This document shows, piece after piece, positions 2,858 through 21,837 of a stretch of 22,164 nucleotides of DNA. This DNA comes from a virus. The DNA is taken from positions 1-22,164 of IMG/VR virus record IMGVR_UViG_3300032093_000935. One strand, given 5' to 3'. The notes beneath the pieces were generated by a model that ran no database searches, was not told the origin of the DNA, and saw nothing but the letters and a program-made list of their open reading frames with translations. Position numbers and translations under genes: made by a program. Numbering within the stretch: position 1 is the first letter of the stretch; the number at the start of each line of letters is the position of its first letter.

Positions 2858-3565
2858 TTACATCTGAGAAATAAATTCTGCTTCAGGAATTCTAGTCTTA
2901 GTGTTCTTACTTCCAAGAACAACAACAATTCTTCTCCCAACATCGGTGTCCAACATCATTACGATGCAACCACCAGATGCTCTTATATAACCGGTTTTAC
3001 TAATAATAAAATCGTGTCTCTTACCAATAATTGGATTTGTATTGTTAAACACCATCCAATTTTTGCGTATCTTAATTTTCACTTCCGACATTTTACTATA
3101 CTGAACCAATTCAGGATAATCTTTTGCCATCAATATAACATCAACCAACTCTTCAGCGTTACTGACATTTCCAGAATCTAATCCTGTTGGTTCTGTAAAT
3201 TTTGTATATGACAGCCCCTGTAAATAAACTTTCTTGTTCATTGCACCAACACATGCGGGCAAACCACCAGGATATTTTTCACATAGTAGTTTGGCTGCGT
3301 TATTGTCGGACTTAACGATTGAAAGTTGCAACAATTCTTTTCTGGTAAATTGGTTGATCTTTTCATCCAAATTTTGTTTGGCATCCAGAACAACCATGGC
3401 AGAAACAAGTTTTGTTATACTTGCGATAGAACGAATCTCTTTGGTATTTTCACCTTGAATAATTTTACCTTTTTCATCAGTTACCAACCAACTTTGTGCG
3501 GTCAGTTTTACTGCGTTTGCATTGCCAACAAAGAAAAATAAAGACAATAAAATAATTTTAAACAT
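2858..3565 (-). CDS. PBP7-like D-alanyl-D-alanine endopeptidase (peptidase S11)
   Basis: A 235-aa serine peptidase of the penicillin-binding S11 family. An N-terminal signal peptide (MFKIILLSLFFFVGNANA, cleaved after A18) sends it to the periplasm. The three active-site motifs are intact: S49-I-T-K52, S86-D-N88 and K190-T-G192. The spacing and phrases such as SIASITKL, AMVVLDAK, YPGG and EPTGL closely resemble E. coli PBP7 (PbpG), a DD-endopeptidase that cuts cross-links between peptidoglycan strands. Start: ATG 3565 is preferred over the upstream TTG in frame because the signal peptide begins there and TTTGAGA lies at ribosome-binding distance. It is the last gene of the minus-strand late operon, and its TAA directly abuts the CCA end of tRNA-Met on the other strand. 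It could help lysis, DNA entry/egress or wall remodelling; the exact role is inference. Confidence 0.88.
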   Translation of the reverse strand: MFKIILLSLFFFVGNANAVKLTAQSWLVTDEKGKIIQGENTKEIRSIASITKLVSAMVVLDAKQNLDEKINQFTRKELLQLSIVKSDNNAAKLLCEKYPGGLPACVGAMNKKVYLQGLSYTKFTEPTGLDSGNVSNAEELVDVILMAKDYPELVQYSKMSEVKIKIRKNWMVFNNTNPIIGKRHDFIISKTGYIRASGGCIVMMLDTDVGRRIVVVLGSKNTKTRIPEAEFISQM

Positions 3566-3598
3566 ATCAATTCTCAAACTAATAATTGTATATAGTTG

Positions 3599-4066
3599 TT
3601 AACTTAATCGTTTAATTATCTCATAAAATAAAAACGAACCAAGACCCAAAATAAAAACAATCACTAGAACCGCAAATAATATTATTTGTGAATTTTCTTG
3701 TTGTCTTCTTGCTTTTAATTTTTGTTTCATTTCATCCTGTGCGGATTCTTTATCCATTGCAGCTGCTCGAGCTTTAATTTTATTCCAAACATCAATCTTG
3801 CCTGTCTGCATGAATAGTAACTGCAATTCTTTTTCGAATTGTTTAGTTTGTTCCAATGCCATTTCTATTTCAATTGCTGCTGCCATAGAAGATTTTTTTC
3901 CACTATTTTTTGCTTGTGCAACAGCTTTTGTTGCTGTACTTTTAGCATCAAAATATTTTCCAAGAACCGGTCCCAATGATGATACATCATCCACAGTTTT
4001 TGAAACTTTTTTAATAAGTGTAACGGCAGACTGTATGCCGGCCAACGCGGTTATTGGATCAATCAT
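3599..4066 (-). CDS. Tail-anchored helical membrane protein, unknown function
   Basis: A 155-aa protein starting MIDPITALAGIQSAV, an amphipathic N-terminal segment. A long charged, probably helical middle (about 45-122) follows, then one strong C-terminal membrane helix (about 127-150) and a short basic tail. No signal peptide or cysteines. Proteins beginning MIDPI(T/S)A are familiar from T4-like phages without known function. Its ATG follows the stop codon of the upstream gene directly (TAA then ATG), so it is almost certainly translationally coupled. Lying between a secreted Cys-containing protein and a DD-endopeptidase in a late operon, it could be part of a lysis or envelope-modifying machine, for example holin- or spanin-like, but no diagnostic motif shows this. 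Confidence 0.75.
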   Translation of the reverse strand: MIDPITALAGIQSAVTLIKKVSKTVDDVSSLGPVLGKYFDAKSTATKAVAQAKNSGKKSSMAAAIEIEMALEQTKQFEKELQLLFMQTGKIDVWNKIKARAAAMDKESAQDEMKQKLKARRQQENSQIILFAVLVIVFILGLGSFLFYEIIKRLS

Positions 4067-4282
4067 TTATATTCCTAACTTACATAAATTTTTGTATAAT
4101 CTATCCGAACAATCTTTCTTTTTCCATTCCAAACAATAGACTTTTCTCACATTACCATAATCAGTCCAAGTCCATTTAACACATTCATACGCAGAATCTC
4201 CTTTTTCTTTAGAAACTGCTTCTTGCAAAAATAATATACTAATTAGAAAGTGGATTATCCAGAGCCTTTTTAATTTTATCAT
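4067..4282 (-). CDS. Small secreted Cys-containing protein
   Basis: A 71-aa precursor with an N-terminal export signal: basic MIKLKRLW, then the hydrophobic stretch IIHFLISILFL, with likely cleavage before KEKGDS. The mature part of about 45 residues has four cysteines (in YECVKW, VYCLEW, KDCSD and NLCKLG), which suits two periplasmic disulfides, and is basic and aromatic. No lipobox is evident, so it is not a clear outer-membrane spanin. The start lies inside the preceding gene (44-base overlap), with AAAAGAAG at ribosome-binding distance. It abuts the next gene without spacing. Function unknown; the operon context is envelope-directed. Confidence 0.72.
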   Translation of the reverse strand: MIKLKRLWIIHFLISILFLQEAVSKEKGDSAYECVKWTWTDYGNVRKVYCLEWKKKDCSDRLYKNLCKLGI

Positions 4283-4835
4283 CGACTTCTTTTCGTAACA
4301 CTCTTATTTCTGCCTGTGTTTCTTTTTGATTGCGTGTCATTTCTTGATTCACTTCTTTAATAGTTTGATCACTGTATCTACGAACTTCTTTCAATGTACT
4401 ATCGGATTCTTTTTTAATTTCTTTGATTGCTTGATCAGTATCTCTCTGACTAGCCTTTGTGGATCTTTCCATATTCTCAACAACACCTTCAACTCTACGA
4501 ACATCATTCTTTAAATCGTTTTTGATACTGTTTGTATACTCGGTCATCTTGCTGGTGTTAGCATCCAAAACTTCCATCTTTTTGTAGAGTTCAGTTAAGT
4601 CTGGTGTAACATACTCAGCAATTTTCTTTTTCATTCCGATGTAGTCTTTGTAGACTTCAAAAGCACCATAAAGTCCGCCAAGTAGTGAAGATACCAAAGT
4701 AAATGCAACCATAAGTTTGGCGGGTGTGAATTCATATCCACCAATTGAAATTACCGTATCTTTACTTGCATATTTTTTTACTGTTGCTTCCGCTTCATCT
4801 ATTTTCTTGTTTACGTCTTTAATTTCTTCTGGCAT
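4239..4835 (-). CDS. Single-TM coiled-coil membrane protein, unknown function
   Basis: A 198-aa protein. The short N-terminal region (MPEEIKDVNKKIDEAEATV) is followed by GGYEFTPAKLM and one membrane helix (about 40-60, AFTLVSSLLGGLYGAF). From about 65 to 192 it is highly charged with heptad-like spacing, predicting a long coiled coil. The topology of one TM plus a long coiled coil resembles inner-membrane spanins or tethering proteins in outline, but coding length and lack of a recognised motif leave this open. An AAGGAA box precedes ATG 4835. It is two bases from the upstream gene and overlaps the next by 44 bases, so it belongs firmly to the late operon. Confidence 0.78.
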   Translation of the reverse strand: MPEEIKDVNKKIDEAEATVKKYASKDTVISIGGYEFTPAKLMVAFTLVSSLLGGLYGAFEVYKDYIGMKKKIAEYVTPDLTELYKKMEVLDANTSKMTEYTNSIKNDLKNDVRRVEGVVENMERSTKASQRDTDQAIKEIKKESDSTLKEVRRYSDQTIKEVNQEMTRNQKETQAEIRVLRKEVDDKIKKALDNPLSN

Positions 4836-4837
4836 TT

Positions 4838-7051
4838 TTAATTTCCTTTTTTGTATTGTGATTCGACCATTTCATTGTGGAGTCTATCGGTACCACCGAA
4901 CATTCTTAAATTGGCACGACTATCAATATTTTTTTGGTTATTATAAATTGAATATGGTTTGTATCCAACCGCATCATTCATAATTGTTTTACCATAAGTG
5001 TCGAAGCCTGGAGTGAAACCCATTGCTTGAATTACTACATTCTGAACCGCCTTTTGCGCTTCTAAGTCAGACGCTTTGCCCATTTCATTTGCAAGGTTTT
5101 TACCTTTTTCTACCGCTTCTGCTTTTGCAGCTGCTTCACGTTTGGCCTGAAGTTCTTGTCTTGCAGTTGGTGCTGCAGGTTTAGAATCACCACCTTTTGG
5201 TTCATTCTTTGCTTGTTGTGAACCACCACCTTCTGTTTTACCTTCAGGTTTGTTTTCATCTTGTTTTTGCTCTTGTCTTGCCATTGGTGCTGCAGGTGGA
5301 GACAATTGAACAGGTGCTGCAGGTGCAGAACCACTTGTTGATGTGGTTTTTGGTGCAATCGCTTTATCTACGTTTGTATCACCAGTTGTGGATACACCAG
5401 TTGAAACTGTACCATCGGTGTTAACAGTTGTTGAAGCTGTGTTTGTTGCCACTATTGTGTTTGCTGGGTCACTTGCTTTGGTTGCCGCTGTATCTGATAA
5501 TGATTGATTTACGGAACTAGAAATAGATGAATCTGTAAATTTAATCAAATTCTTAATTGCGTAAGCAGTTGCATATCCTTCACACTTATTACTGTATAGA
5601 GAATCTTTGATACATTGTGCATTAAAATATGCCTGTTCGTAGCCTGGACAATCAGTTGCATAAAGAGGATTCGCCGTACATTGTTGTGTCTTATATGCAG
5701 CTGCGTAGCCAGTACAATCTGTTGCAAATAATGGACTAATCGAACATTGTTGGTCGTGATATGCTTGTTGGTAACCAGAACATGTTGTACTATACAATGG
5801 ATTGATAGAACATTGATATGTCAAATATGCTGATGCATAACCAGGACATGCTGGGTCTGATAATTGACTTGCATTACATTGTTGTGTGAACATGGCGGCT
5901 GCATAACCGGGACAAGCAGAATTATACAATGGATTTACAGTACATTCTTGTGTGAAATATGCTGTTTGATATCCTTCACATGTTGTTGCGTACAATGGAT
6001 TTACTACACATGGGTCTGGTGTATACTGCCATCTACTCCAACTACTATACAATGCGGTAGTTCCAATTTCTCTTGTGCTTAAAGAAAAGTTACCCATTGT
6101 TGATAATAGTCTTTGTTGTGGAAACACAAAACTGTAACTTGGTTCACCACTTGTATTTGAACCATGATTATGAGTCATTGAATAAAGAGATGAACCAGTA
6201 TTCGATGTTACACTAACATCAACTGCCATTGAAGATGCTGATGTTTGAGTGCAAAATATTCCTAAGAAAGTTTCTGAACACCAATCACCACCAACATAGT
6301 AATGATACCCATACTCAAAACCATTAATTTGAACACCAGAACCTGAAAGGCTTAGTGCTTGATTAATTGCGTAACTTTGAGCATAGATTGTTTGGCTAGT
6401 TAAAACTTGATTGTAATTTGGACAACTAGGAGAATACAATGGATTAGCCATACATGGGTCTGTTGTATAATTCAAAGTTAAAGACGGTTCTCTAACTTGT
6501 GGACCATAATAACCTGCCCAAAATCTATTGTCCTTACCTGTGAATGATAATCTCATTGCATCACCGGCAAGTAAACTATATTCACTGGTAAATGCTTGCG
6601 TACCAGTTTTTAATTCAAACCCATTGGTTGTTGAATTGTAATTATAATTGTAAGTTTCAAGAGCTGTATTACCACGCATCAATTCAACTTTACCAGCCAA
6701 TGTACCTGATTGGTCACCAGAGTTATTGATGTACCAAGAGTAATTGTATCCATTAATCTTAATGCCAGAATTGGATAAATCTAGCGCATGTTGAATAGCA
6801 AATGCTTCAGCAGTAATTCTCTGAGTTGCTGTTGCAGTTGAATAACCAAAGATTAAAGTATTTGTCGTGGAATTAAATGCTGGTCCATTACCACCACCTG
6901 AATATCCAGCATTTTGACCCGCAACAGAACCCGACCAAGCATTGACTGTTGGTGTTAAAATGTTTTGCGATGTTATTGGAGTTTGTGCTTTGGCGGAACC
7001 CGAAGCAATCCCTGCAATTAAAAAAGCACCAATAATGGCAACCAACTTCAT
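4838..7051 (-). CDS. Large exported protein with tandem 22-residue Cys repeats
   Basis: A 737-aa precursor with signal peptide (cleavage after SAKA, about residue 22). Order: a Gly/Ser/Asn-rich N-terminus; two related domains (about 80-205 and 223-358) that align over AFAIQHALDLSNSGIKING and YAINQALSLSGSGVQING and both end in a DPC..NPLY...C unit; then seven tandem 22-residue repeats with first cysteines at 348, 370, 392, 414, 436, 458 and 480. The repeat consensus is QCxxNPLYxxxCPGYxxAYxxQ, with paired Cys ten residues apart. A Thr/Ser then Pro/Gln/Lys low-complexity linker (about 505-640) and a conserved-looking tail with GTDRLHNEMVESQY follow. The Cys pairs suggest disulfide-linked mini-folds in the periplasm or on the particle. 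Similar repeats occur in other large phages; function unknown. Start ATG 7051 has an AAGGA box seven bases upstream. Confidence 0.85.
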   Translation of the reverse strand: MKLVAIIGAFLIAGIASGSAKAQTPITSQNILTPTVNAWSGSVAGQNAGYSGGGNGPAFNSTTNTLIFGYSTATATQRITAEAFAIQHALDLSNSGIKINGYNYSWYINNSGDQSGTLAGKVELMRGNTALETYNYNYNSTTNGFELKTGTQAFTSEYSLLAGDAMRLSFTGKDNRFWAGYYGPQVREPSLTLNYTTDPCMANPLYSPSCPNYNQVLTSQTIYAQSYAINQALSLSGSGVQINGFEYGYHYYVGGDWCSETFLGIFCTQTSASSMAVDVSVTSNTGSSLYSMTHNHGSNTSGEPSYSFVFPQQRLLSTMGNFSLSTREIGTTALYSSWSRWQYTPDPCVVNPLYATTCEGYQTAYFTQECTVNPLYNSACPGYAAAMFTQQCNASQLSDPACPGYASAYLTYQCSINPLYSTTCSGYQQAYHDQQCSISPLFATDCTGYAAAYKTQQCTANPLYATDCPGYEQAYFNAQCIKDSLYSNKCEGYATAYAIKNLIKFTDSSISSSVNQSLSDTAATKASDPANTIVATNTASTTVNTDGTVSTGVSTTGDTNVDKAIAPKTTSTSGSAPAAPVQLSPPAAPMARQEQKQDENKPEGKTEGGGSQQAKNEPKGGDSKPAAPTARQELQAKREAAAKAEAVEKGKNLANEMGKASDLEAQKAVQNVVIQAMGFTPGFDTYGKTIMNDAVGYKPYSIYNNQKNIDSRANLRMFGGTDRLHNEMVESQYKKGN
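5552..6013 (-). repeat. Seven tandem 66-bp (22-aa) coding repeats
   Basis: The DNA encodes seven in-frame units of exactly 22 residues within the 737-aa exported protein. Each has two cysteines ten residues apart and the core NPLY...CPGY..AY. Units 3 (QLSDPAC) and 7 (DSLYSNKC) have drifted most. A single isolated unit occurs about 148 residues earlier. DNA identity between units is moderate, so the expansion is not recent. Confidence 0.88.
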
Positions 7052-7053
7052 AG

Positions 7054-7527
7054 TTAGTCCTTGCTCTTAACTTTCTGTGGTGCTCTTTCTGGATTTTCTT
7101 CCCAAATTTTCTTGGCTTGTTCGCCAATTTTACCATCTATTGGGCAAGGAGTTCCAGCATTCATCATTGCTGTAAACACTCTTTCATCTTGACACATAAT
7201 AGCAACTGCTGCAACTTTCATACCCATATCATATGTTGAACGGGCTAATTTTAGTCTTTCGCAATTTTTATCTGTCATTGTGGCACCAAAAGAGATGCCG
7301 AGAATTTGGGTTTGAGTTGCACCAGAAACGGCGACAGCACAAACATCACTATTAATAACGGTGACTGCGGGAGCCACTGCTGTTGGTGGCGGAGAATTTA
7401 CGGTTGTTGTGCTTTCAGAAGTAGATTGTGTGGTGCTTCTGCTAGTCGAATCAGTAACAATGGGCTGAGCCATTGCTGGGAATATTGCCATGACAAAAAG
7501 CACCGGTACGGCAAGCTTTTTGAACAT
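7054..7527 (-). CDS. Exported phage protein, unknown function (first gene of late operon)
   Basis: A 157-aa precursor with a classic signal peptide (MFKKLAVPVLFVMAIFPAMA, cleavage after residue 20). A Ser/Thr-rich linker (about 24-45) and a PPP segment precede a globular domain (about 58-145) containing DVCAVAVSGATQTQ, NCERLKLARSTYDMGMKVAA, MCQDERVF and NAGTPCPIDG. The four cysteines suggest periplasmic disulfides. I recall this arrangement of SGA.QTQI, NCERLKL and YDMGMKVAAV in proteins of other T4-like phages annotated only as hypothetical. ATG 7527 has AGAGGT at ideal distance. It is the first gene after the late promoter at 7591-7598, with a leader of roughly 50 bases, and is two bases from the next gene. 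Confidence 0.82.
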   Translation of the reverse strand: MFKKLAVPVLFVMAIFPAMAQPIVTDSTSRSTTQSTSESTTTVNSPPPTAVAPAVTVINSDVCAVAVSGATQTQILGISFGATMTDKNCERLKLARSTYDMGMKVAAVAIMCQDERVFTAMMNAGTPCPIDGKIGEQAKKIWEENPERAPQKVKSKD

Positions 7528-7549
7528 TTTTACCTCTATTTTAGGTGTG

Positions 7550-7578
7550 TTGACATGAAATGAAATTTATGTTAAAAT
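7550..7578 (+). promoter_or_regulatory. Sigma-70 early promoter for the replication operon
   Basis: TTGACA (7550-7555, 6/6) and TAAAAT (7573-7578, 5/6) are spaced by exactly 17 bases. TG one base before the -10 box gives an extended -10 element. Initiation near 7585 would give a short leader to ATG 7619 and drive the small beta-rich gene and the polymerase genes. The -35 box lies 23 bases upstream of the divergent gene's start codon. Confidence 0.88.
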
Positions 7579-7590
7579 AAACTTTATAAG

Positions 7591-7598
7591 TATTTATA
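7591..7598 (-). promoter_or_regulatory. T4-type late promoter (TATAAATA) for the minus-strand operon
   Basis: The minus strand reads exactly TATAAATA, the T4 late -10 box recognised by the phage sigma factor (gp55 in T4). It is correctly placed about 64 bases upstream of the first exported-protein gene. It lies in the leader region of the divergent early transcript, so early and late transcription overlap here. Confidence 0.72.
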
Positions 7599-7618: not shown

Positions 7619-7930
7619 ATGAAAATCATGTTATTCAAACTTGTAACACACGAAGAAGTTTTGGCTGAAGTGAGTGAAGAAACGGATACAACTGTGGTAT
7701 TAACCAATCCTGTTGGTGTTGCCGTTGTTAGAGGCAAAGATGGTGCACCAAATGTTGGATTCGCACCCTTTCCTCTCCATGCAGAACAAAAAACTGGAAC
7801 ACAGGTTGCCATTCAGAAGCAACATGTAGTATACTCCTATGTTCCTGCCGATGATTTTGTTAATAATTACAATCAAATTTTTGGCACTGGTATCATTCTA
7901 CCCAAACAACAAAGCATCATTACCGGTTAA
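7619..7930 (+). CDS. Small beta-rich phage protein, possibly Sm-like
   Basis: A 103-aa protein. The N-terminal part (MKIMLFKLVTHEEVLAEV, then TTVVLTNPVGVAVVRGKDG and NVGFAPF) follows the strand pattern of an Sm-like barrel, with a T.EEVLAEV strand and VLTNPV strand as in LSm-type domains; this is a pattern impression only. The C-terminal part has ADDFVNNYNQIFGTGI. Small proteins of this kind with NPVG..VVR and F..NYNQIFG occur near replication genes of other T4-like phages. Start: ATG 7604, 7613 and 7619 are all in frame; 7619 is chosen because AAAGG (7607-7611) is placed seven bases before it, and 7604 has no such box. Its TAA shares a base with the polymerase ATG (TAATG), which suggests translational coupling. 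Role unknown. Confidence 0.72.
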   Translation: MKIMLFKLVTHEEVLAEVSEETDTTVVLTNPVGVAVVRGKDGAPNVGFAPFPLHAEQKTGTQVAIQKQHVVYSYVPADDFVNNYNQIFGTGIILPKQQSIITG

Positions 7931-9225
7931 TGTCTAACTTCTATACAAATGTTCAAGCCATAGGCGGCAAGATCCTGTATCGCGGGATCATGGACGGAAA
8001 ACGTATCAAACAAAAAGTTGATTATGAACCGTCACTGTATCTGCCTGCCAAAAAAGATAAAGGCACCCACAAATCTCTTGACGGATTGGATTTGACAGAG
8101 AAACGTTTCGATAGCATTTACGAAGCGCGAGAATTCTTTAAGAAATATGATGGCATTCCTGGTGCACCAAAAATCTATGGCAACACCAGATATGAATATG
8201 CATTCATTGCAGATCAACATCCCACGATGGTTGACTGGGATCAAGATAAAGTTTCGGTGGCAATTGTCGATATTGAGGTCGGTTCAGAAAACGGATTCCC
8301 AGATCCTTATCTAGCCAACGAACCTATCACGGCGATTGCAATCACCTATATGAACGGCAAAACTTATGTGTTTGGTTGTGGTGATTATGAAGTTCAAGGT
8401 GATGAATTTTATATCAAGTGTAAAGATGAATGGACTCTTTGCAAGAAGTTCTTGATGTTGTGGTCGGATAATTGCCCGGATGTTATCACTGGTTGGAATA
8501 CAAAGTTTTTCGATATTCCATATCTCGTCAATCGTTTTCGTAAGATTCTTGGTGAAGATGAAACCAAGAAACTGTCACCTTGGAATTATATCTCTGAACG
8601 AAAGACAATCATTAATGGTCGTCAGTTGATTGCCTACAGTTTTGTCGGTGTTGAATCACTAGATTATATCGAACTTTACAAATGGTATGCACCAGGCGGC
8701 AAGTCACAAGAATCCTATCGTCTTGATAATATCGCAAACGTAGAACTTGGTGAAGGTAAAATCTCTTATGATGAGTATGAGAACCTGCATCAGTTGTATC
8801 GTTTGAACTTTCAAAAGTTTATTGAGTATAACATCAAAGACGTTAAACTGATTCTGAAACTTGAAGATAAGTTGAAGCTGATCGAACTGGCACTCACTCT
8901 TGCATATGATACCAAGTGTAATTATGAAGATGTGTTTGCACAGACACGCATGTGGGACTCTCTGACATATTCCTATCTACTGCAACAGAAGATCATTGTA
9001 CCGCCACGTGAAATACAGGATAAAGATTCCGCATTCGAAGGTGCATATGTGAAAGAACCACAAGTTGGTTTGCACAACTGGGTTGCAAGTTTCGACTTGA
9101 ACAGTCTGTATCCACACTTGATGATGCAATATTCCATAAGTCCTGAAAATCTCGTGGAAAGAAACGATATAGATGAAAGAAAACGCAAATTACTTGACGA
9201 ATTGAAACTTAGAAATACTAAATAA
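7930..9225 (+). CDS. 43A: DNA polymerase, N-terminal part (exonuclease domain and motif A)
   Basis: The N-terminal half of a T4-type family-B DNA polymerase, 431 aa. It contains the whole 3'-5' proofreading exonuclease: Exo I D114-I-E116, Exo II N190-x3-F194-D195 and Exo III Y300-x3-D304. It runs into the palm, with polymerase motif A S-F-D389-L-N-S-L-Y-P395 carrying one of the two catalytic aspartates. It ends soon after ISPENLVE with a charged tail (IDERKRKLLDELKL) and a true TAA. The rest of the polymerase is encoded from 9982. Together the parts make 884 aa, close to the 898 aa of T4 gp43, so little has been lost. The two polypeptides must associate to form the active site. The start overlaps the stop of the upstream gene. 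Confidence 0.95.
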   Translation: MSNFYTNVQAIGGKILYRGIMDGKRIKQKVDYEPSLYLPAKKDKGTHKSLDGLDLTEKRFDSIYEAREFFKKYDGIPGAPKIYGNTRYEYAFIADQHPTMVDWDQDKVSVAIVDIEVGSENGFPDPYLANEPITAIAITYMNGKTYVFGCGDYEVQGDEFYIKCKDEWTLCKKFLMLWSDNCPDVITGWNTKFFDIPYLVNRFRKILGEDETKKLSPWNYISERKTIINGRQLIAYSFVGVESLDYIELYKWYAPGGKSQESYRLDNIANVELGEGKISYDEYENLHQLYRLNFQKFIEYNIKDVKLILKLEDKLKLIELALTLAYDTKCNYEDVFAQTRMWDSLTYSYLLQQKIIVPPREIQDKDSAFEGAYVKEPQVGLHNWVASFDLNSLYPHLMMQYSISPENLVERNDIDERKRKLLDELKLRNTK

Positions 9226-9245
9226 GTAGATGTGGTTACTTATTT
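9220..9245 (+). promoter_or_regulatory. Hairpin directly upstream of the HNH gene RBS
   Basis: AAATAAGTA (9220-9228) and TACTTATTT (9237-9245) are a perfect 9-bp inverted repeat with an 8-base loop. It begins on the stop codon of the polymerase N-part (9223-9225) and ends one base before the GGAGA ribosome-binding site of the homing endonuclease (9247-9251). It could attenuate translation or transcription of the endonuclease; hairpins in this position control some T4 homing endonucleases. Confidence 0.6.
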
Positions 9246-9254
9246 GGAGAATCT

Positions 9255-9788
9255 ATGAAATACATTATCACGAAAGATAAACTATACGAGTTGTTTATTA
9301 CCAAAAATATGAGGCGAAGTGAAGTTGCTGATTATTTTGGTTGTTCGGATGCCAACATTAAAAAACATCTACAAAAATTTGACATAAAGAAGCCTTTTAT
9401 GTTAGAATGTCAAAACAAAGAACGCAAAGCCACGGTCAAATGTTTGCATTGTGATAAAGAATATGAAACTCAAAAGTTTAGAACTGAGAGTGAGAAATAT
9501 GATTCCAAGTATTGTAGTTATTCATGTGCCCAAAAAAGTCGTTATCTTGGTGAAGAACATAAACGAAGAATCAGAAATGAAATTGCGGCTAGACGCAGAG
9601 CAAGAATAAGAAATCAAACTCCAGAATTAACAAAGGAAGAAAAGATTAAATTGCAGGAGTATTATTTGATTTGTCCTAAAGGACATGAAGTGGACCATAT
9701 ACAAGCGATAGCGAAAGGTGGTTTGCATCATCCTAATAATTTACAAATATTGACAAAACATCAAAACAGAAAGAAGTGGTGCAAATGA
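9255..9788 (+). CDS. HNH homing endonuclease inserted in the DNA polymerase gene
   Basis: A 177-aa free-standing HNH endonuclease. N-terminal about 1-45: helix-turn-helix-like (RRSEVADYFGCSDANIKKHL). A zinc-finger-like CLHC (C63, C66) and CSYSC (C87, C91) follow, then a very basic stretch (104-120, many Arg). The C-terminal HNH domain carries G-H144-E-V-D147-H148, GGLHHPNN162 and H169-Q-N171. The usual activity is a site-specific cut that spreads its own gene. GGAGA just before ATG 9255 sets the start, immediately after a 9-bp hairpin. It overlaps the next ORF by four bases (ATGA). It separates the two polymerase parts, which is the expected footprint of a homing-endonuclease invasion. Confidence 0.9.
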   Translation: MKYIITKDKLYELFITKNMRRSEVADYFGCSDANIKKHLQKFDIKKPFMLECQNKERKATVKCLHCDKEYETQKFRTESEKYDSKYCSYSCAQKSRYLGEEHKRRIRNEIAARRRARIRNQTPELTKEEKIKLQEYYLICPKGHEVDHIQAIAKGGLHHPNNLQILTKHQNRKKWCK

Positions 9789-9982
9789 TGAGAACTCCAA
9801 ATGTATATTCGGCCGATGAGATTAAAAATTGGGATGTACAGTCATGTGGAAAAAATGGTCTTTGGACTCTAGCTAGACCTATGTCTTGGCCTGGAATAAA
9901 TTTACAAAAGAGGATATCGTCTGCATGGATGGTATTCACCGGTAAAGCAGATGTTTTGGTTTGGTTATCGGAGAATGATTAA
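9785..9982 (+). CDS. Small ORF inside the polymerase split
   Basis: A 65-aa ORF beginning MMRTPNVYSADEI and containing GLWTLARPMSW and the aromatic-rich SSAWMVFTGKADVLVW near its end. Small proteins with a G.W..ARP and W.VFTGKAD..(I/V)W pattern are scattered in tailed phages; I know of no function. The start is ATG 9785, whose ATGA overlaps the stop of the endonuclease gene; ATG 9788 is equally possible. Its stop shares a base with the start of the second polymerase gene (TAATG) and a GGAGA box for that gene lies within it, so it may serve chiefly to carry ribosomes from the endonuclease to the polymerase C-part. Confidence 0.65.
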   Translation: MMRTPNVYSADEIKNWDVQSCGKNGLWTLARPMSWPGINLQKRISSAWMVFTGKADVLVWLSEND

Positions 9983-11343
9983 TGTTTCGTGATGTAAAAG
10001 AAATGACAACTGAAGAAATTGAAAAAGAACTTCAGGCAATTGAATTATTCCAAAGTGAAATTGGAAAGGTGAATGTTAATACCTTGCTCAATAAGAGTGT
10101 TGATACTTCATTCTTAACACCAATGCAATGCACAATAACTCCAAATGGCCAACTATTTCGAACCGACAAACAAGGTTTCTTGCCAAAGATGATGGAAGAA
10201 ATGTACGTTGATCGTAGCAAATTCAAGAAGATGATGTTGGCAGCAAAACAGGAATATGAAAACGAAACGGACGATTCGAAGAAGTATGATATCGAAAAAC
10301 GTATCGCACGATACAACAACCTACAACTTGCAAAGAAAGTTTCGTTGAACTCCGCTTATGGTGCTTTGGGTTCACAATACTTCCGCTTCTATGACTTGCG
10401 TATGGCACTTGGTGTTACCACAGCAGGTCAATTATCCATTCGTTGGATCGAAAACAAGATCAACGAATACATGAACAAGATTCTTAAAACAGAAAGTGTT
10501 GATTATGTCATTGCATCAGATACTGACTCGATTTATCTCAATCTTGGACCTCTGGTGCAACATGCGATGGGGGACAGAAGTAAAGATATTAACAGGACGA
10601 TATCCTTCATGGATAAAGTTTGTGAGGATAAGATTCAACCGTTTATTGACAAGTCTTATGGAGAACTTGCTGACTATGTTAAGGCATATTCACAAAAGAT
10701 GCAAATGAAACGCGAAGGTTTGTCCAACAAAGGTGTCTGGACTGCCAAGAAGCGTTACATTCTAAACGTCTACAATAACGAAGGCGTTCAATATAAAGAA
10801 CCACAGATGAAAGTCATGGGTCTTGAAATGATCAAGTCATCAACACCATCGGCAATCCGTGAGAAGATGAAAGAGGCAATCAAGTTGATGATGACTGGCA
10901 CTGAGAACGATGTTCAAAGCTTTATTGCCAATTTCAGAGAAGAGTTCAAAAGATTACCGCCAGAAGAGATATCTTTTCCGCGAGGGCTTAATGGTTTGAA
11001 CACCTATTCTGATTCAGTTACACTATATAAGAAAGGTACACCAATTCATGTTAAAGGTGCCATTCTTTATAATCATAACCTCAAGTTGATGGGTCTGGAA
11101 AAGAAGTATCAGAAGATCCAAGAAGGTGAGAAAATCAAATTCACCTATCTCAAGATGCCGAATCATTTTAAAGATACCGTCATTTCTTTTCCTTCCAGAA
11201 TACCAAAAGAGTTTGAACTTGACAGGTTTATTGATTATGATGTACAATTCGATAAAGCATTTTTGGAACCAATTCGTGTGATTTTGGATTGTATGAAATG
11301 GAAAGTTGAGAAGAATAATTCTTTGGAAGACTTCTTCAGTTGA
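9982..11343 (+). CDS. 43B: DNA polymerase, C-terminal part (motifs B and C)
   Basis: The C-terminal half of the family-B polymerase, 453 aa. After about 45 residues linking to the palm, T51-I-T-P-N-G-Q-L-F matches the T4-family TPNG segment. Then come fingers motif B (K119-V-S-L-N123-S-A-Y-G-A-L-G), motif C D180-T-D182-S with the second catalytic aspartate, the KKRYILNVYN segment corresponding to the KxY motif, and the thumb. The final residues NNSLEDFFS look like the short hydrophobic tail with which T4-type polymerases bind the sliding clamp. The first ~35 residues (MTTEEIEKELQAIELFQSE) are helical and charged and could dock with the charged tail of the N-part. Start ATG 9982 overlaps the upstream TAA and has GGAGA in front. 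Confidence 0.95.
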   Translation: MFRDVKEMTTEEIEKELQAIELFQSEIGKVNVNTLLNKSVDTSFLTPMQCTITPNGQLFRTDKQGFLPKMMEEMYVDRSKFKKMMLAAKQEYENETDDSKKYDIEKRIARYNNLQLAKKVSLNSAYGALGSQYFRFYDLRMALGVTTAGQLSIRWIENKINEYMNKILKTESVDYVIASDTDSIYLNLGPLVQHAMGDRSKDINRTISFMDKVCEDKIQPFIDKSYGELADYVKAYSQKMQMKREGLSNKGVWTAKKRYILNVYNNEGVQYKEPQMKVMGLEMIKSSTPSAIREKMKEAIKLMMTGTENDVQSFIANFREEFKRLPPEEISFPRGLNGLNTYSDSVTLYKKGTPIHVKGAILYNHNLKLMGLEKKYQKIQEGEKIKFTYLKMPNHFKDTVISFPSRIPKEFELDRFIDYDVQFDKAFLEPIRVILDCMKWKVEKNNSLEDFFS

Positions 11344-11361
11344 AATGTAAAAGGAAATTAA

Positions 11362-15247: not shown

Positions 15248-16324
15248 ATGGCTTATACATTTTTTCCAAAGACTGCGACAGAGATTAAGCAAACCTTGAA
15301 AGGTGATAAAGCAAAGATTAACGAAATTATCGATGTTTTTGTATATCTCAAAAACAAGTTTGCGAAAATCGGATCACCAATCAATATTGATCCTGGTTCG
15401 ATCAGTAAAATTAATGTGACCAGAAATTTACAAGGTGACATTGAACTTAGTGATATCAAACGAGCAACCAAAGTTAGTAAAATTACTATGAAATTTGGTT
15501 CCGGTTCTTCCGGTGGTAGAGGTGTGCAAAACAAAGGTAATGCATACGAAGGACAATTAGCAGAAGCAATTAATGACTGGTGGTCAGGTAAAAGTAGTAC
15601 TGATCCCAAACTATCAGAAGCAGTTGATGATCTTGTCAAATTGCATAAACTAAACAAGGTCAAAAAACTAGAAGTAAAAATGGTTGGTGAGTTGAATAAC
15701 AAACGACCATTCATTTTCACTCCGCAAGTTCTTATTTCATCTGAGATTACTGTAACCGATAATAATCTGGGGCCCGTTGTTAGCGATATTACATTAATCA
15801 CAGATGAAAAGAAAATCTATCTAAGTTTGAAGACTGGTGGCACAGTTACATTCTTCAATTCCGGTATTCGTACAGTGCTTTCTCCAGCTGAAATTAAATC
15901 TGGACGAATTACCAATAAAGATGGTTTGAAAATTTTAGATATGTTCAATATCAATGATGCGGTATTCTGTGATATCTTTAATGGTAAGCTTAAAAAAGGT
16001 TACGTTGACGATGTGTGGAAAACAATGTCACAAAAACAAAAAAATCAACTTAAAAATTTTCTAATTTCGGGTGTGGGCCATGGTTATACTATTGTTCATA
16101 AATTGACTGGTAAGACCAAGGTCTATGAGATTGATAAGACATACATGACATCAGCCGCTACACCAACTTCTTGTAATGTATACTATGGTGGTAAGTCCGG
16201 TACAGGTAAACGTATTGATATGGAAATAGAAACGGGTCACTACATTCTTAAACTTAACATACGTGATACGCAAGGTGGTGATGGTTATCCCACTCGTATG
16301 ATGTGTGACTACACATACAAATAA
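15248..16324 (+). CDS. Candidate PD-(D/E)XK-fold nuclease
   Basis: A 358-aa protein. In the middle, GNAYEGQLAEAIND (E101) is followed by PVVSDITLI (D180) and KKIYLSLKTGGTV (S193-L-K195). This helix-Glu, then strand-Asp, then strand-xK order is the active-site pattern of PD-(D/E)XK restriction-endonuclease-like proteins, with Ser replacing the second acid. The N-terminal ~85 residues and C-terminal ~150 residues (with HGYTIVHKLTGKTKVYEID, and CNVYYGGKSGTGKRI) are of unknown type, possibly DNA-recognition parts. It stands behind the tandem promoter-like repeats, after the replication block, so roles in recombination, host DNA degradation or packaging are possible. ATG 15248 follows GAAAGTAACTA, a weak ribosome-binding site. 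It shares one base with the next gene (TAATG). Confidence 0.72.
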   Translation: MAYTFFPKTATEIKQTLKGDKAKINEIIDVFVYLKNKFAKIGSPINIDPGSISKINVTRNLQGDIELSDIKRATKVSKITMKFGSGSSGGRGVQNKGNAYEGQLAEAINDWWSGKSSTDPKLSEAVDDLVKLHKLNKVKKLEVKMVGELNNKRPFIFTPQVLISSEITVTDNNLGPVVSDITLITDEKKIYLSLKTGGTVTFFNSGIRTVLSPAEIKSGRITNKDGLKILDMFNINDAVFCDIFNGKLKKGYVDDVWKTMSQKQKNQLKNFLISGVGHGYTIVHKLTGKTKVYEIDKTYMTSAATPTSCNVYYGGKSGTGKRIDMEIETGHYILKLNIRDTQGGDGYPTRMMCDYTYK

Positions 16325-16608: not shown

Positions 16609-17319
16609 ATGAGTGTGACTGTGATTATGCCAACTACTGGTGCACCAGAGTTGAAAGATGCCATTCGTGGCGTACTGAACCAATCTTATGAAACAAAATG
16701 TTACATTGTTGCGGATGGACCAAAAGCACATGCTAGCACAAGAATCATTACAGACGATTTCTTGGATAGAAAAAACTTAACGCGATGTTTTCTGCCACTT
16801 AATGTGGGTGCTAACGGATTCTATGGGCATAGAGTCTATGCGGCTTTCACTCACCTAATCGATACTGATTATGTGGTTTACCTGGATCAAGACTGTTGGT
16901 TTGAACCAGATCATATAGAGAACTGCATCAAAACAATCGAACAACAGAACCTGGATTGGTCCTATTCACTCCGCAAGGTGTGTACCAAAGATGGGCAATA
17001 CATATGTAATGATGACTGTGAATCTTTAGGTAAATGGCATTCATATCATGGTATTAATCATATTGATACAAATTGCTATTGCATAAAAACTGAAGTTGCG
17101 ATAAAATTAGCACAGGTTTGGCATGGAGGGTGGGGTCAAGATCGTGTTTGGTTAAAAGTGTTATCACAACATTTTCCCAAATTCAATTGTACAGGAAAAT
17201 ATACTGTCAACTATCGTGTTGATGGCAATGCTGGTTCTGTCAATGCAGACTTCTTCTTAAATGGTAATAAAGTGATGAATGAAAAATATAATGGAGAATT
17301 TCCGTGGCGAAAAATTTAA
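16609..17319 (+). CDS. Family 2 (GT-A) glycosyltransferase
   Basis: A 236-aa GT-A glycosyltransferase. The N-terminus VTVIMPTTGAPELKDAIRGVLNQSY is the GT2 nucleotide-sugar binding start. YLD93-Q-D95-CWFEP holds the DxD metal/nucleotide motif. A later GGWGQDRVW is in the region where GT2 enzymes have the ED/QxxRW catalytic-base motif. It transfers a sugar from a nucleotide donor; acceptor unknown, possibly phage particle, DNA base or host surface glycan. Five cysteines lie in the middle (about 107-145). AGAGG at 16597-16601 is suitably placed for ATG 16609. It is the first gene of a tightly packed module and overlaps the next by 16 bases. Confidence 0.9.
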   Translation: MSVTVIMPTTGAPELKDAIRGVLNQSYETKCYIVADGPKAHASTRIITDDFLDRKNLTRCFLPLNVGANGFYGHRVYAAFTHLIDTDYVVYLDQDCWFEPDHIENCIKTIEQQNLDWSYSLRKVCTKDGQYICNDDCESLGKWHSYHGINHIDTNCYCIKTEVAIKLAQVWHGGWGQDRVWLKVLSQHFPKFNCTGKYTVNYRVDGNAGSVNADFFLNGNKVMNEKYNGEFPWRKI

Positions 17320-18164
17320 TTATTGGTGGTTTTACTAATTACGAAATCAATCAGTTAAAACCTTGGGTACTATCGGCAAAAGAAGTTTCTGGTGATAATG
17401 ATGTTGTTCTGGTGACTGGAAAAACATCTGTACAGACAATCGATTGGTTGAAGAATCAAGGTGTGATTATCTTTCCAATGAAACAAGTCGATGGTGTGCC
17501 AATTCATGTACTACGTTTCCTCTCAATCTACGAATATCTAAGACACAATTGGTCAAAGTATAATTTCGTTGTCACGACAGATGTGAAAGACGTTTACTTT
17601 CAGTACACACCTTTTGCTTACATGGATTCAATCATTGGACACGATAGTTTCACACCAAAGTTAATCATTGCATCTGAAGGTCTGCGTTACAAAGACGAAC
17701 CTTGGGGTGATGACAATCTCAAACAGTCTTATGGTCCGTATGTTTACGAACAATTCAAAAACAATACGATCTATAACGTAGGAACTTTTGGTGGCACATC
17801 AGAGTATGTCAAAGATATGGTCTTCAATATCTTTACGAACGCAATCAACAGGCCAATTCCTATTTGTGACCAAGCGGTGTTCAATGTCTTAATTGGAACA
17901 CAACCTTTTAAAGATGTTGTATATCACACCGATAATTGGGCGTGTGAAGCTGGCACTGTTGCTGATCCCACAAAGATTGATCATTTCAGGCCGAACCTTC
18001 TTTGTTATGAACCTGTATTCCGAGACGGAGTGGTTTATACGAACGACCAATATGTTTTCCCAATCGTGCATCAATATGATCGTGTTCCAGAATGGAAAAA
18101 GTTCGTGATGGAAAAATACAATCAAGAAGATGAATCTCAATTTTTTAAATACAGGACTATATAA
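17304..18164 (+). CDS. Glycosyltransferase-like protein (GT-A type)
   Basis: A 286-aa protein. LIIGGFTNYEINQLKPWVLSA begins a Rossmann-like fold; YNFVVTTD93-VK-D96-VYFQ resembles the metal-binding acid motif of GT-A enzymes that handle nucleotide sugars (GT8-like arrangement). IICDQAVFNVL near residue 190 and IVHQYDR near the C-terminus are in the places of the acceptor-site and terminal H motifs of such enzymes. No membrane segment. The start is GTG 17304, supported by GGAGA at 17293-17297 with six bases of spacing; no in-frame ATG is near. It overlaps the genes on both sides, so it belongs to the same operon. Substrate unknown. Confidence 0.8.
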   Translation: MAKNLIIGGFTNYEINQLKPWVLSAKEVSGDNDVVLVTGKTSVQTIDWLKNQGVIIFPMKQVDGVPIHVLRFLSIYEYLRHNWSKYNFVVTTDVKDVYFQYTPFAYMDSIIGHDSFTPKLIIASEGLRYKDEPWGDDNLKQSYGPYVYEQFKNNTIYNVGTFGGTSEYVKDMVFNIFTNAINRPIPICDQAVFNVLIGTQPFKDVVYHTDNWACEAGTVADPTKIDHFRPNLLCYEPVFRDGVVYTNDQYVFPIVHQYDRVPEWKKFVMEKYNQEDESQFFKYRTI

Positions 18165-18733
18165 TGAGCGATATTATTACATTCAACACCGAAACACAGG
18201 CTTTCACACCACCATCTTCTGCATTTAAATGTTCTGGTTATGGGCTTGGTGCAATGATTAGAGAAATGTCTCATCCCAAAGTATTGGAAATTGGATGTGA
18301 CATTGGTGACACCACACAATTTTTACTTGACAGTAATCCAGATTGTGTATTGACTGGCGTAGATCCATATACGAACTATGTTGACTGGAACGGAAACAAT
18401 CTAAATGAACGCGAAGCAATCTATCAGAGGTTTATGAACCGTTTGATAGGTTACAGCAATCGTTTTGGTCTATTGAGAGATTATTCTGACAATGTTGTAG
18501 ATCAAGTGTTAGATGATTCTTTCGATGTTATCTTTATTGATGGTCTACACACCTACGAACAACTGACAAAAGATTGTGCAAACTTCTATTCTAAATTGAA
18601 GACTGGTGGTATCTTTGCTGGCCACGATTACAATGCCATTTCTGGTGTGCGCCAGGCAGCCAATGAATTTGCCGAAAAGGTTGGTAAAGAGATTCTTTTC
18701 ACAGAGTGTGATGTTTGGTACTGGGTCAAATGA
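18164..18733 (+). CDS. SAM-dependent methyltransferase (class I)
   Basis: A 189-aa Rossmann methyltransferase. Motif I is VLEIGCDIGDTT (40-51), where SAM binds; LTGVDPY (63-69) is the acidic post-II strand end; DVIFIDGLHTYEQ (121-133) and GIFAGHDY (149-156) match the Methyltransf_24-type proteins often found in polysaccharide loci, where D126, H129 and D155 may bind a metal. It probably O- or N-methylates a sugar or small molecule made by the surrounding genes. TAATG overlap with the upstream gene and ATGA overlap with the next show operon organisation. Confidence 0.9.
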   Translation: MSDIITFNTETQAFTPPSSAFKCSGYGLGAMIREMSHPKVLEIGCDIGDTTQFLLDSNPDCVLTGVDPYTNYVDWNGNNLNEREAIYQRFMNRLIGYSNRFGLLRDYSDNVVDQVLDDSFDVIFIDGLHTYEQLTKDCANFYSKLKTGGIFAGHDYNAISGVRQAANEFAEKVGKEILFTECDVWYWVK

Positions 18734-19419
18734 AAAATTGTATAGTTTTATCTGGTCAATATAGAACATTTGACCAAACATGGGAAAACATCAAAAGATT
18801 TATTGATTTGAATCAACTAGATGTTTATTGTCACCTTTGGTCGGACAGTAAAGAAGAATTTGACAATATAGTTGACAGATTGAAACCCGTCAGAATCAAA
18901 GCTGAAAATTATGAACTGCATAAAGAAGAATTCGAAGAAATGGAAAAAAGGATTCGCCTAGCACATCCTAAAAATCCAAATCAAGATCGAATTGCTGGTA
19001 ATGCATCAATGAATTATAGTCGTAAGAAGGCTTTTGATTTAATTGAAGAAGAATACAACACACTTGTTTATTGTCGTTATGATATTCAGTTCGGTCAGTT
19101 ATTTGATTTCAAAGATGTTGATATGTTAATCACACCTTTTGAAGAGTCTTATAATCTAATATCCGATATCTTTGCAATCATGCCATTCTCATACGCAAAG
19201 CATTATTTTCTATATGATCAATATGAAAGACTACATTCTACACCTTTTGAAAAAGAATTCGAAGATCATCTAAGACATGATCGCAAATATGGCGAAGAGA
19301 ATATCAGAATACATAAAGAAGACAGATATTGCCCACACATGATGTTGTTGCGTAATATATACATGAACAAACTCCGTGGTGTTACAACAAATCAACTGAC
19401 TGTATCAATACAAAGATGA
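18730..19419 (+). CDS. Putative glycan-locus protein, paralogue A
   Basis: A 229-aa protein beginning MKNCIVLSGQYRTFDQTWENI. It shares with the next gene the pattern of an N-terminal (L/F)SGQ.R(T/S)F strand-loop, D-V-Y-.-H-x-W (DVYCHLW), a RP/KPV-.-.-K-.-E element, and (C/S)R.D.(Q/A) (VYCRYDIQF) after an acidic turn. Such SGQ-RTF...RYD proteins occur in capsule, LPS and large-phage sugar clusters and are usually called glycosyltransferase-like; no activity is established that I know of. ATG 18730 is chosen because its ATGA overlaps the methyltransferase stop and the family motif starts there; an upstream TTG in frame has no support. Confidence 0.72.
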   Translation: MKNCIVLSGQYRTFDQTWENIKRFIDLNQLDVYCHLWSDSKEEFDNIVDRLKPVRIKAENYELHKEEFEEMEKRIRLAHPKNPNQDRIAGNASMNYSRKKAFDLIEEEYNTLVYCRYDIQFGQLFDFKDVDMLITPFEESYNLISDIFAIMPFSYAKHYFLYDQYERLHSTPFEKEFEDHLRHDRKYGEENIRIHKEDRYCPHMMLLRNIYMNKLRGVTTNQLTVSIQR

Positions 19420-20093
19420 AAATTGCATTATGTTTTTCTGGGCAAGCCAGATCATTTGACAAAGGTTATGATTTTTATAAACAGAACCTACTAGATCATT
19501 ATGATGTGGATGTGTATATTCACAGTTGGAAATTCGATGGTGAAAGAAAACTTTTGGAACTTTATAGACCAGCAAGTTATAAATTGGAAACACCACCACT
19601 AGCTGATTACGACAGTAAATACACGAATACACCAAACGCAGAGAAGTATCCTCCACGATTTACGTATCGAATGTTCTATTCGATGAATGAATGTAGGAAA
19701 TTAATCTTTGGTGACTACGATTGGATCATCCGTTCACGTACAGATTATGCATTGAATGTCAAAATTCCTTTTGAAGAATTGGATAACAGTAAACTGTATA
19801 TACCTAATTGCAGAATGGTACCAACAAGAGACTTTGGTAATGATCAGTTTGCATTCTCATCAAAAGATAACATGATGAAATACATGTCGACCTATGAAAA
19901 CATTGATGAGTACTATAATGGTGGTAATCAATTCATTGGTGAAGACTTGATGCGAGCCAATTTACATAGACACAACCTTCATGGTGAAAATCTTGTGTAT
20001 GTTAATATGCAAAATCCTTTTCCGCCTGGCGCACACAACGGAACATGGCATTCATTGATTCGGGATGATTACGAACAATGGATAAAACAGTAA
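19416..20093 (+). CDS. Putative glycan-locus protein, paralogue B
   Basis: A 225-aa protein, related to the preceding gene: MKIALCFSGQARSFDKGY, DVDVYIHSW, YRPASYKLETP, then DYDWIIRSRTDYALN and NDQFAFSSKDNM, a C-terminal NGGNQFIGEDLM. The SGQARSF...HSW...RSRTDY set is typical of proteins of unknown or glycosyltransferase-like function in surface polysaccharide loci; the acidic RxRTD segment could bind a nucleotide-sugar metal. It overlaps the upstream gene by ATGA and the downstream kinase gene by 16 bases. Tandem duplication of the two genes is ancient, since only the core motifs are shared. Confidence 0.75.
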   Translation: MKIALCFSGQARSFDKGYDFYKQNLLDHYDVDVYIHSWKFDGERKLLELYRPASYKLETPPLADYDSKYTNTPNAEKYPPRFTYRMFYSMNECRKLIFGDYDWIIRSRTDYALNVKIPFEELDNSKLYIPNCRMVPTRDFGNDQFAFSSKDNMMKYMSTYENIDEYYNGGNQFIGEDLMRANLHRHNLHGENLVYVNMQNPFPPGAHNGTWHSLIRDDYEQWIKQ

Positions 20094-20821
20094 AGGAATT
20101 TTCCGGGCATTCTGGCAGCAAAATATACTTGATGGAAAATGCTCAAGGATTGTTTGTAAGAAAAGTCAACAATATTGAAAGAAACCTGGAAAGGTTAACA
20201 TCACTCCATGGTGCAGGTTATAATGTGCCGAGAATACATCATTCCGAAGACAACCTGATTGACATGGAGTATATTCATGGTTTAGATATGAAAAACTATC
20301 TAATTCATAATACAACCACAAAATTAGAAGACTTCATAATAGAGACATTCAGTTCTTTCGCAAAAATTTCCGTCAACAAAGATTATTCTGGTGTTTATGA
20401 TAAGAAACTTGATTGGTTGAAAGACAACGAAGAATTACCATTCACCAAAGATCAGTTGATCGAGAAACTACCAAAAGAATTACCAAGTTCAACTTATCAT
20501 GGTGATCTGACATTAGAAAACATCATCTATGCCAAGTCAAAGTTCTGTATGATCGATGCTGTGTCTGTAGAATACGATTCTTACATTTTCGACATTGCAA
20601 AGATGCGTCAGGATTTAGAATGTAAATGGTTCTTACGGAAGACTGACGTTCGACTAGATATCAAATTACAAAACATACAAGATAAACTAAGAAAACTTTT
20701 CCCTTTGGCTTTCAACGATAACTTGTTGATACTAATGTTGTTGAGAGTGTATCTACATACTAAGAGTGGTGACTTTGAACGTGAATTTATTTTGAGAGAG
20801 ATTAGAAGACTATGGAAATAA
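20078..20821 (+). CDS. APH/choline-kinase-fold small-molecule kinase
   Basis: A 247-aa kinase of the aminoglycoside-phosphotransferase/choline-kinase fold. LFVRKV gives the ATP-binding Lys (K29). DMEYIHG is the hinge strand. The catalytic loop is H141-G-D143-L-T-L-E-N148, and the metal-binding D160 (MIDAV, in place of DFG-type) follows. It transfers phosphate from ATP to a small alcohol or amine. Its neighbour is a nucleotidyltransferase, so together they resemble kinase-plus-nucleotidylyltransferase pairs such as LicA/LicC that make CDP-activated groups; the substrate is not shown. It starts inside the upstream gene and overlaps the next by ten bases. Confidence 0.87.
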   Translation: MDKTVKEFSGHSGSKIYLMENAQGLFVRKVNNIERNLERLTSLHGAGYNVPRIHHSEDNLIDMEYIHGLDMKNYLIHNTTTKLEDFIIETFSSFAKISVNKDYSGVYDKKLDWLKDNEELPFTKDQLIEKLPKELPSSTYHGDLTLENIIYAKSKFCMIDAVSVEYDSYIFDIAKMRQDLECKWFLRKTDVRLDIKLQNIQDKLRKLFPLAFNDNLLILMLLRVYLHTKSGDFEREFILREIRRLWK

Positions 20822-21837
20822 TTGTACCAGCAGCTGGTCTGTCAACCAGATTCCCAAATATGAAACCGAAGTATCTGTTGTATGATTACAAACACGATAT
20901 GATGTTGATAAATGCACTAAGACCTTTCATACAAAAAGGATACAAGATTCATATAGGCATTCTCAAAGAACATGAGGAGAAATACAATGTTCGCGAACAA
21001 ATCAGACATGAATGCCCGGTCAATATTAATTGTGTCATCATTGACAAACCAACCAGAGGTCCTGCCGATACTGTCTATCAAATCATCAAGGCTTCGAATC
21101 TTGACAGTCAAGAAATATTCATCAAAGACTGTGACAGTTACTTTGACCATGATTTTTCTGATGGTAACTATGTTTGTGTTTCAAAAATCTCCGAACATGA
21201 AGTCTTGAAGAAACTTGCATCAAAGAGTTTCACCGTCTCAAATGAAAATGGTATAATCACTGACATTATTGAAAAACAAGTTGTCTCCGATACATTCTGT
21301 GTTGGTGGTTATAAGTTCTTCTCTGCAAAAGTGTATAAGAATGCATTTGAACAGATAGAAACCAGTCGAGAAGTTTTTGTTTCTGATGTTATCTCGCGCT
21401 GCATCAATAATAAGATGGTCTTCACCGAAAAGATGGTGACAAACTATGTTGATGTTGGCACCGCACAAGACTGGTTCGAACACAATAACAAACCAGTTAT
21501 CTTCTGTGATATTGATGGTACTATCATTAAGGCGCAGTCCAGACTGGATCTGGAATCTGGTGTACCAGAAGTGCCATTGAAAAACAATCTGGAACGTCTA
21601 CTTAAAATGCAAGAATCTGGTTCTCAATTCATTTTCACTTCTGCAAGAGAGAACAAGTATACACCACAAACCAGAGAAATGTTGTACAGACTTGGTTTCA
21701 AGAGTTTCAATTTGATTTGTGGATTACAGAATTCATCTAGAATATTGATCAACGATTTCAACGAATCTAATCCTTATCCTAGAGCAGAAGCAATTAACCT
21801 TTACAGAGACTCTGATAATTTAAGCCACTATCTATGA
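20812..21837 (+). CDS. Nucleotidyltransferase-HAD phosphatase fusion
   Basis: A 341-aa two-domain protein. Residues 1-225 are a nucleotidyltransferase of the sugar-phosphate/phosphocholine type: PAAGLSTRFPNMKPKYLL is the signature loop with Arg and Lys contacts to NTP; FIKD106-CD108-SYF holds the metal-binding acids; VGGYKFF is a family strand. Residues 226-341 are a HAD phosphatase: FCD233-I-D235-GT (nucleophile and acid), FTSAR (motif II), and ILINDF (motif IV region) with the NPYPRAEAINLYRD ending known from capsule-locus HADs. It probably activates a phosphorylated small molecule with NTP and removes a phosphate from a related intermediate. The close link to the kinase gene supports a joint pathway. 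Confidence 0.88.
   Translation: MEIIVPAAGLSTRFPNMKPKYLLYDYKHDMMLINALRPFIQKGYKIHIGILKEHEEKYNVREQIRHECPVNINCVIIDKPTRGPADTVYQIIKASNLDSQEIFIKDCDSYFDHDFSDGNYVCVSKISEHEVLKKLASKSFTVSNENGIITDIIEKQVVSDTFCVGGYKFFSAKVYKNAFEQIETSREVFVSDVISRCINNKMVFTEKMVTNYVDVGTAQDWFEHNNKPVIFCDIDGTIIKAQSRLDLESGVPEVPLKNNLERLLKMQESGSQFIFTSARENKYTPQTREMLYRLGFKSFNLICGLQNSSRILINDFNESNPYPRAEAINLYRDSDNLSHYL

Follow-up and report, generated by a model that had tools for sequence, protein, structure and literature searches.

What is an operon of six genes for exported and membrane proteins, closing with a cell-wall endopeptidase that resembles penicillin-binding protein 7 (PBP7), doing in the genome of a phage? We addressed this question for the IMG/VR viral record IMGVR_UViG_3300032093_000935, a stretch of 22,164 bases that was analysed as a whole and is called the window here. 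The window belongs to a freshwater T4-like phage, as seen from an HNH-interrupted DNA polymerase, uvsX- and DnaB-like genes and 11 tRNAs. Because it is a fragment of a genome, the genome context was taken from relatives: G001, a complete relative of 172 kb with a terminal repeat of 131 bases, and L282, a contig that is colinear with the window over its rightmost 11.4 kb, at 92.8% DNA identity, and extends beyond the window's right end. These relatives carry ordinary lysis genes, so the six-gene set (A to F) looks like an add-on and not like the lysis machinery itself. The answer we favour, giving it about an even chance, is that the operon is an accessory late exported module that would act on the wall and the outer envelope beside a normal lysis system. 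Its parts are as follows.

7591-7598, minus strand: T4-type late box TATAAATA, 64 bp upstream of the start of gene A
7054-7527, minus strand: gene A, 157 aa, signal-peptide-like N-terminus and a conserved domain
4838-7051, minus strand: gene B, 737 aa, signal-peptide-like N-terminus, fast evolving
4239-4835, minus strand: gene C, 198 aa, single membrane helix (from about residue 41) and coiled coil
4067-4282, minus strand: gene D, 71 aa, signal-peptide-like N-terminus, four cysteines, sharing 44 bp with the 3' end of C
3599-4066, minus strand: gene E, 155 aa, coiled coil and a C-terminal membrane helix (from about residue 128) forming a tail anchor
2858-3565, minus strand: gene F, 235 aa with an ATG start at 3565, predicted exported PBP7-type S11 DD-peptidase
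2990-3421, minus strand: catalytic motifs of F, S49-x-x-K52 (3421-3410), S86-x-N88 (3310-3302) and K190-T-G192 (2998-2990)

All six open reading frames (ORFs) that the original prediction had placed on the minus strand are present, at 2858-7527, and are tightly packed: 2 bp separate A from B and B from C, C and D overlap, D and E abut (0 bp), and E and F are 33 bp apart. An alternative TTG start of F at 3577 would give 239 aa. The ratio of nonsynonymous to synonymous substitution rates (dN/dS) against relatives was determined for A, B, C, E and F. It is 0.05-0.20 in F, and the ranges in C, A, E and B are 0.08-0.17, 0.12-0.30, 0.12-0.34 and 0.34-0.54, respectively, so these five are not chance ORFs. 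Purifying selection acts on A, C, E and F, and the rate of evolution is much higher in B. Four signal peptides and two membrane proteins had also been proposed, and the hydropathy peaks, from which we judged all signal-peptide-like N-termini and helices, fit this (N-termini of A, B, D and F; single helices of C and E).

Late expression of the operon is likely, judging from the distribution of the box. The window contains TATAAATA twice against 1.5 expected, which makes the box by itself weak evidence. In many relatives, including diverged ones, a copy of TATAAATA or CATAAATA stands about 60-80 bp upstream of A. In G001, six of the eight exact boxes are at most 150 bp ahead of a same-strand ORF start (1.6 expected), and one of the six precedes the Gp23 capsid-region genes; gene A of G001 has only the CATAAATA variant, 125 bp upstream. 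The claim of a late-type box is supported by this recurrence before A and by the concentration before ORF starts in G001.

Gene F matches Pfam Peptidase_S11 (PF00768) with E=1.1e-34 and 120.4 bits, against a gathering cut-off of 27.6. Viral contigs were scanned for F relatives; 114 were obtained and 80 of them retained. The three motifs are intact and in order, with S11 spacing, in all 80, and they are invariant in an alignment of 23 sequences; this supports the proposed PBP7-like endopeptidase with a full set of S11 motifs. By far the best match of F is the PBP7/PbpG murein DD-endopeptidase (PDB 6azi, 6muq; NF008668), which has the same motifs and an exported form, as predicted for F. A profile of 23 phage F proteins hit two PBP7 endopeptidases in the PDB at 5e-47 and 3e-46, with the next family at 3e-18, and NF008668 is the top NCBIfam match. 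The NCBIfam equivalog cut-off of 294 bits is missed by the F of the window (146 bits) and by three relatives (146-171 bits for the four proteins), so we describe F as PBP7-like and do not file it as a PBP7 equivalog. F differs from PBP7 in being phage-borne and only about 235 aa long: it has neither the insert ahead of the SxN segment nor the C-terminal extension, and ends soon after the catalytic domain. The C-terminal midcell-localisation helix of PBP7 is missing with the extension. In PBP7, this helix is required for midcell localisation and dispensable for activity, and overproduction of the E. coli enzyme leads to lysis (PMC11586513). The DD-endopeptidase reaction of F is well supported by homology, and the protein is probably enzymatically active. 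A contig scan with the F profile, in which two peptide patterns only were used and which leaves room for distant cellular homologues, gave no close cellular relative but one weak match (Blautia, 25%). F seems to be an established phage lineage and a phage-specific family.

We found conventional lysis genes in both relatives. Past the window's right end, L282 carries an inner-membrane spanin (i-spanin)-like gene, called by its anatomy and position, an outer-membrane spanin (o-spanin)-type lipoprotein and a GH19 endolysin, which starts about 8.8 kb beyond the end of the window and matches a PHROG endolysin family at 3.5e-74. The o-spanin homologue of contig L277 matches an Rz-like spanin, with a LysC match just below cut-off. 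In G001, a Pfam scan of 145 ORFs of 75-460 aa revealed a three-transmembrane (3TM) holin and a GH19 endolysin, adjacent to each other and about 23 kb from the module. An o-spanin-type lipoprotein stands immediately before this endolysin, and an i-spanin-like gene lies farther upstream. Among 81 GH19 loci, an o-spanin occurs within 1.5 kb in 64 and an i-spanin in 56. Given the GH19 and spanin genes of L282 and G001, the window phage very probably carries conventional lysis genes as well. This holin-GH19-spanin operon is, like the six genes, late and envelope-directed, and in some phages of the group it can embed A-B-C-E-X, where X is a DUF4337 membrane protein. However, it is a separate locus in L282 and G001 and shares no A-F family with the six-gene operon, X in the F operon of G001 excepted.

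Two other families were noted. In 63 of the 81 GH19 loci, a small protein that seems to have two membrane helices (PHROG 25359; in L277 at 10915-11361) is encoded within 1.5 kb of GH19; it is a candidate holin. A SleB-like Hydrolase_2 (PF07486) with a signal-peptide-like N-terminus, apparently a second exported wall enzyme, is encoded at 15586-16077 in G001 and at 67672-68202 in G004; the family is present in 13 of 22 records searched.

We then compared the gene neighbourhoods. Relatives of gene A occur in at least 599 IMG/VR stretches, and the order A-B-C is seen again in Pelagibacter phages as well as in many aquatic viral contigs. The Pelagibacter phages HTVC023P, HTVC033P, HTVC115P, HTVC202P, Baldr and Mosig have this order and the conserved A domain; they differ from the window in that F was not found there, and their genes are mostly annotated as hypothetical. 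The relative L002 has an F 99% and an A 96% identical to those of the window, a B only 56% identical, and no recognisable D or E. The F sequences form 40 clusters at 90% identity, 39 of them informative and one too truncated to place. According to simple ORF calling and BLAST labels, F is accompanied by A, B, C, E or X in 16 of the 39, adjoins a curli type VIII secretion system (T8SS) in 12, lies about 6 kb from one in 4, and has neither in 7. Judged by these linkages, the six genes are separable modules with A-B-C as the core. The original prediction had taken them as one unit. This holds only in part. G001 keeps the window order as A-B-C-D'-E-X-F, but in many phages F is found without A-B-C, often on the opposite strand or beside curli genes, and A-B-C mostly occurs without F.

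The loci in which F directly adjoins a curli T8SS (CsgG, curlin-like, FecR and CHASE2-cyclase genes) are L014, L015, L017, L018, L020, L021, L023-L032 and L039. In curli representatives, Pfam recognised CsgG (4.6e-45), FecR (5.6e-10), CHASE2 (3.8e-39) and the cyclase (8e-16), with the curlin repeat marginally below cut-off (5e-4). A variant of the A-B-C cassette, present in many contigs (L147, L163, L174, L190 and others), has a short B (about 290 aa) and three small signal-peptide-like families between A and C. For the small secreted proteins of this marine form, no Pfam match reached the cut-off, and a comparison of two of them with the PDB gave nothing convincing.

In some phages, the module stands inside the lysis operon. 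The order in L251 is i-spanin, o-spanin, GH19, A, B, C, a small Cys protein and a two-helix protein, and L259 has, on one strand, i-spanin, o-spanin, a lipoprotein, GH19, A, B, C, E, X and a 3TM holin. HTVC023P reads A-B-x-C-M15 peptidase, Mosig has a 3TM holin directly before A, and MW202879 has E-holin-M15. The presence of A-B-C-E and X inside lysis operons of other phages supports the link to the lysis stage that had been drawn for the window. Gene X, which lies 4 bp ahead of F in G001, also occupies the place between an o-spanin and the GH19 endolysin gene, about 13 bp ahead of the latter, in L211, L218, L219, L220, L224, L225, L234 and L244 (eight loci). This position suggests a lysis-related role of DUF4337 in phages.

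The other proteins of the operon are less easily assigned. Gene A, which has no Pfam match reaching cut-off, has four invariant cysteines in its domain (63, 89, 112 and 128); its AlphaFold model has a mean predicted local distance difference test (pLDDT) score of 50 and was not taken into the fold search. The AlphaFold model of gene B has two jelly-roll domains (about 33-197 and 240-344) that are for the most part confidently predicted, followed at about 348-500 by Cys-rich helical repeats of 22 residues, a disordered linker and a C-terminus that is conserved and modelled with low confidence. The first jelly roll matches sugar-binding Fbs1 and carbohydrate-binding module domains in the fold search (against 2rj2: Z 11.9, root-mean-square deviation 3.8, 154 residues aligned), a likeness of fold; sugar binding by B is a hypothesis. 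A sequence search of phage records with B gave no matches. In gene C, the helix region is invariant, as is a DNPL motif near the C-terminus, and C relatives in other phages likewise terminate in NPL. Gene D is weakly conserved, and by reading, no lipobox Cys stands close to its signal. Gene E belongs to PHROG 32327. "Lysozyme" neighbours of A in the Roseobacter phages CRP-810 (gp51) and CRP-207 (gp73) (L085, L086) were rejected as such: by reading they look like coiled-coil membrane proteins of the C family ending in NPL, and the lysozyme annotation is a probable misannotation.

With these parts, the action of the module could proceed as follows. Transcription would begin late, from the TATAAATA box seen ahead of A. 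The host Sec system would export A, B, D and F, and C and E would reside in the inner membrane, as predicted from their sequences. By its homology and intact motifs, F would cleave D-Ala-mDAP (meso-diaminopimelic acid) cross-links from the periplasm without waiting for a holin, and lacking the extension that holds the midcell-targeting helix of PBP7. A may form a periplasmic or outer-envelope complex with B, whose domains are carbohydrate-binding-like, and with C, a coiled coil tethered to the membrane. The wall would thus be loosened and the outer envelope remodelled at the end of infection, with rupture left to the GH19 endolysin, spanins and holin encoded elsewhere. Consistent with this are a PBP7-like F with intact motifs under purifying selection, the predicted exported or membrane character of all six proteins, the conventional endolysin and spanins of L282 and G001, and the embedding of A-B-C(-E-X) within the lysis operons of L251 and L259. 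Three points weigh against it. GH19 lies near A in 6 of 68 loci, about the chance frequency, and an enrichment of GH19 around A was dropped for this reason; a recognised holin or endolysin occurs within 10 kb of F in only 1 of 79 loci; and the frequent adjacency of F and a curli module fits a role in secretion or display equally well. A broader proposal, which we regard as doubtful, is that Sec-exported A-B-C together with E, X and the phage-specific PBP7-type enzyme constitutes a widespread extra rupture step, acting before the holin and in addition to endolysin and spanins, and swapped among unrelated aquatic phages.

The main rival, a tentative one, is support of surface display or secretion: A and B (elsewhere, curli) would assemble at the outside of infected cells, perhaps aggregating them, and F would open the wall locally to let these complexes through or allow their assembly. 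Two secreted modules that are unrelated to each other accompany F, A-B-C-E-X in 16 of the 39 clusters and curli, beside or near, in another 16, and the fast diversification of B, unlike its neighbours, together with its carbohydrate-binding-like folds would be expected of a surface-exposed protein. Joint action of an autolysin-like enzyme and CsgGF has been proposed for a related phage (PMC9004378). The phage curli/T8SS modules resemble the operon as late secreted envelope modules that move among phages of aquatic bacteria (PMC9599517 and PMC9004378), and F adjoins them in relatives. However, no CsgG, CsgF, curlin, FecR or cyclase was recognised among the six genes by Pfam and PHROG, the operon has no outer-membrane pore or known export system, and the embedding of A-B-C-E-X within the lysis operon of some phages also counts against display.

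An unlikely explanation is superinfection exclusion or receptor masking, in which the secreted proteins would cover or alter the surface so that competing phages fail to adsorb. Late secreted proteins and a fast-evolving carbohydrate-binding-like B would suit such a role, and PMC9599517 lists superinfection defence as a possible role of phage curli. However, late timing is poorly suited to exclusion, and masking needs no wall endopeptidase.

A self-contained cassette with F in place of the endolysin and C as spanin, a form of the non-standard lysis cassette that was among the options originally suggested, is very improbable and already largely refuted. By homology F would break cross-links in the wall, C has a coiled coil anchored in the membrane, and the first family sweeps of big relatives gave no standard endolysin: early Pfam sweeps of PBP-carrying genomes (lysozyme, M15, amidase_2, GH108 and SLT, with a GH108 control that gave no signal) found no dedicated endolysin. 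The canonical lysis genes that the prediction had proposed to look for were nevertheless found in the relatives. The role of sole endolysin for F was rejected on finding the GH19 and 3TM holin of G001, and then the spanins. The i-spanin role for C was rejected because separate i-spanin and o-spanin genes co-occur with C in L251, L259 and L277. Least probable of all are structural or virion-associated proteins: A-B-C adjoins terminase or capsid genes in some small phages, but the signal-like N-termini of A, B, D and F and the helices of C and E are unfit for cytoplasmic virion assembly.

Phage curli modules are already known (PMC9599517, PMC9004378); as far as they were searched, these papers mention neither a PBP nor a link between F and curli. 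Also known is a D-alanyl-D-alanine carboxypeptidase homologue of Limnohabitans phage DC31, annotated as S11-type; this cultivated freshwater phage has a separate endolysin, and the homologue was reported as an auxiliary metabolic gene (PMC12195039). Our literature search, of incomplete coverage, gave no paper that deals with the A-B-C module or with an F gene next to A-B-C. Hundreds of aquatic phage contigs carry a secreted module of unassigned function, and some phages place it in the lysis operon. If the module acts on the wall and the outer envelope, it would add a step to phage exit from dominant freshwater and marine bacteria. F, a phage-specific family in an enzyme class with established assays, offers a handle on this role.

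Other features of the window were noted as well. Eleven densely set tRNA genes (53-2261) lie ahead of a GroES-like gene (2349-2594). The DNA polymerase (7930-11343) consists of two ORFs with an HNH endonuclease gene (9255-9788) between them, and the polymerase ORF of G001 is intact. Genes resembling those for glycosyltransferases, methyltransferases and nucleotidyltransferases form a run (16609-22163) that is conserved in L282 and G001 and perhaps serves the modification of surface sugars or DNA.

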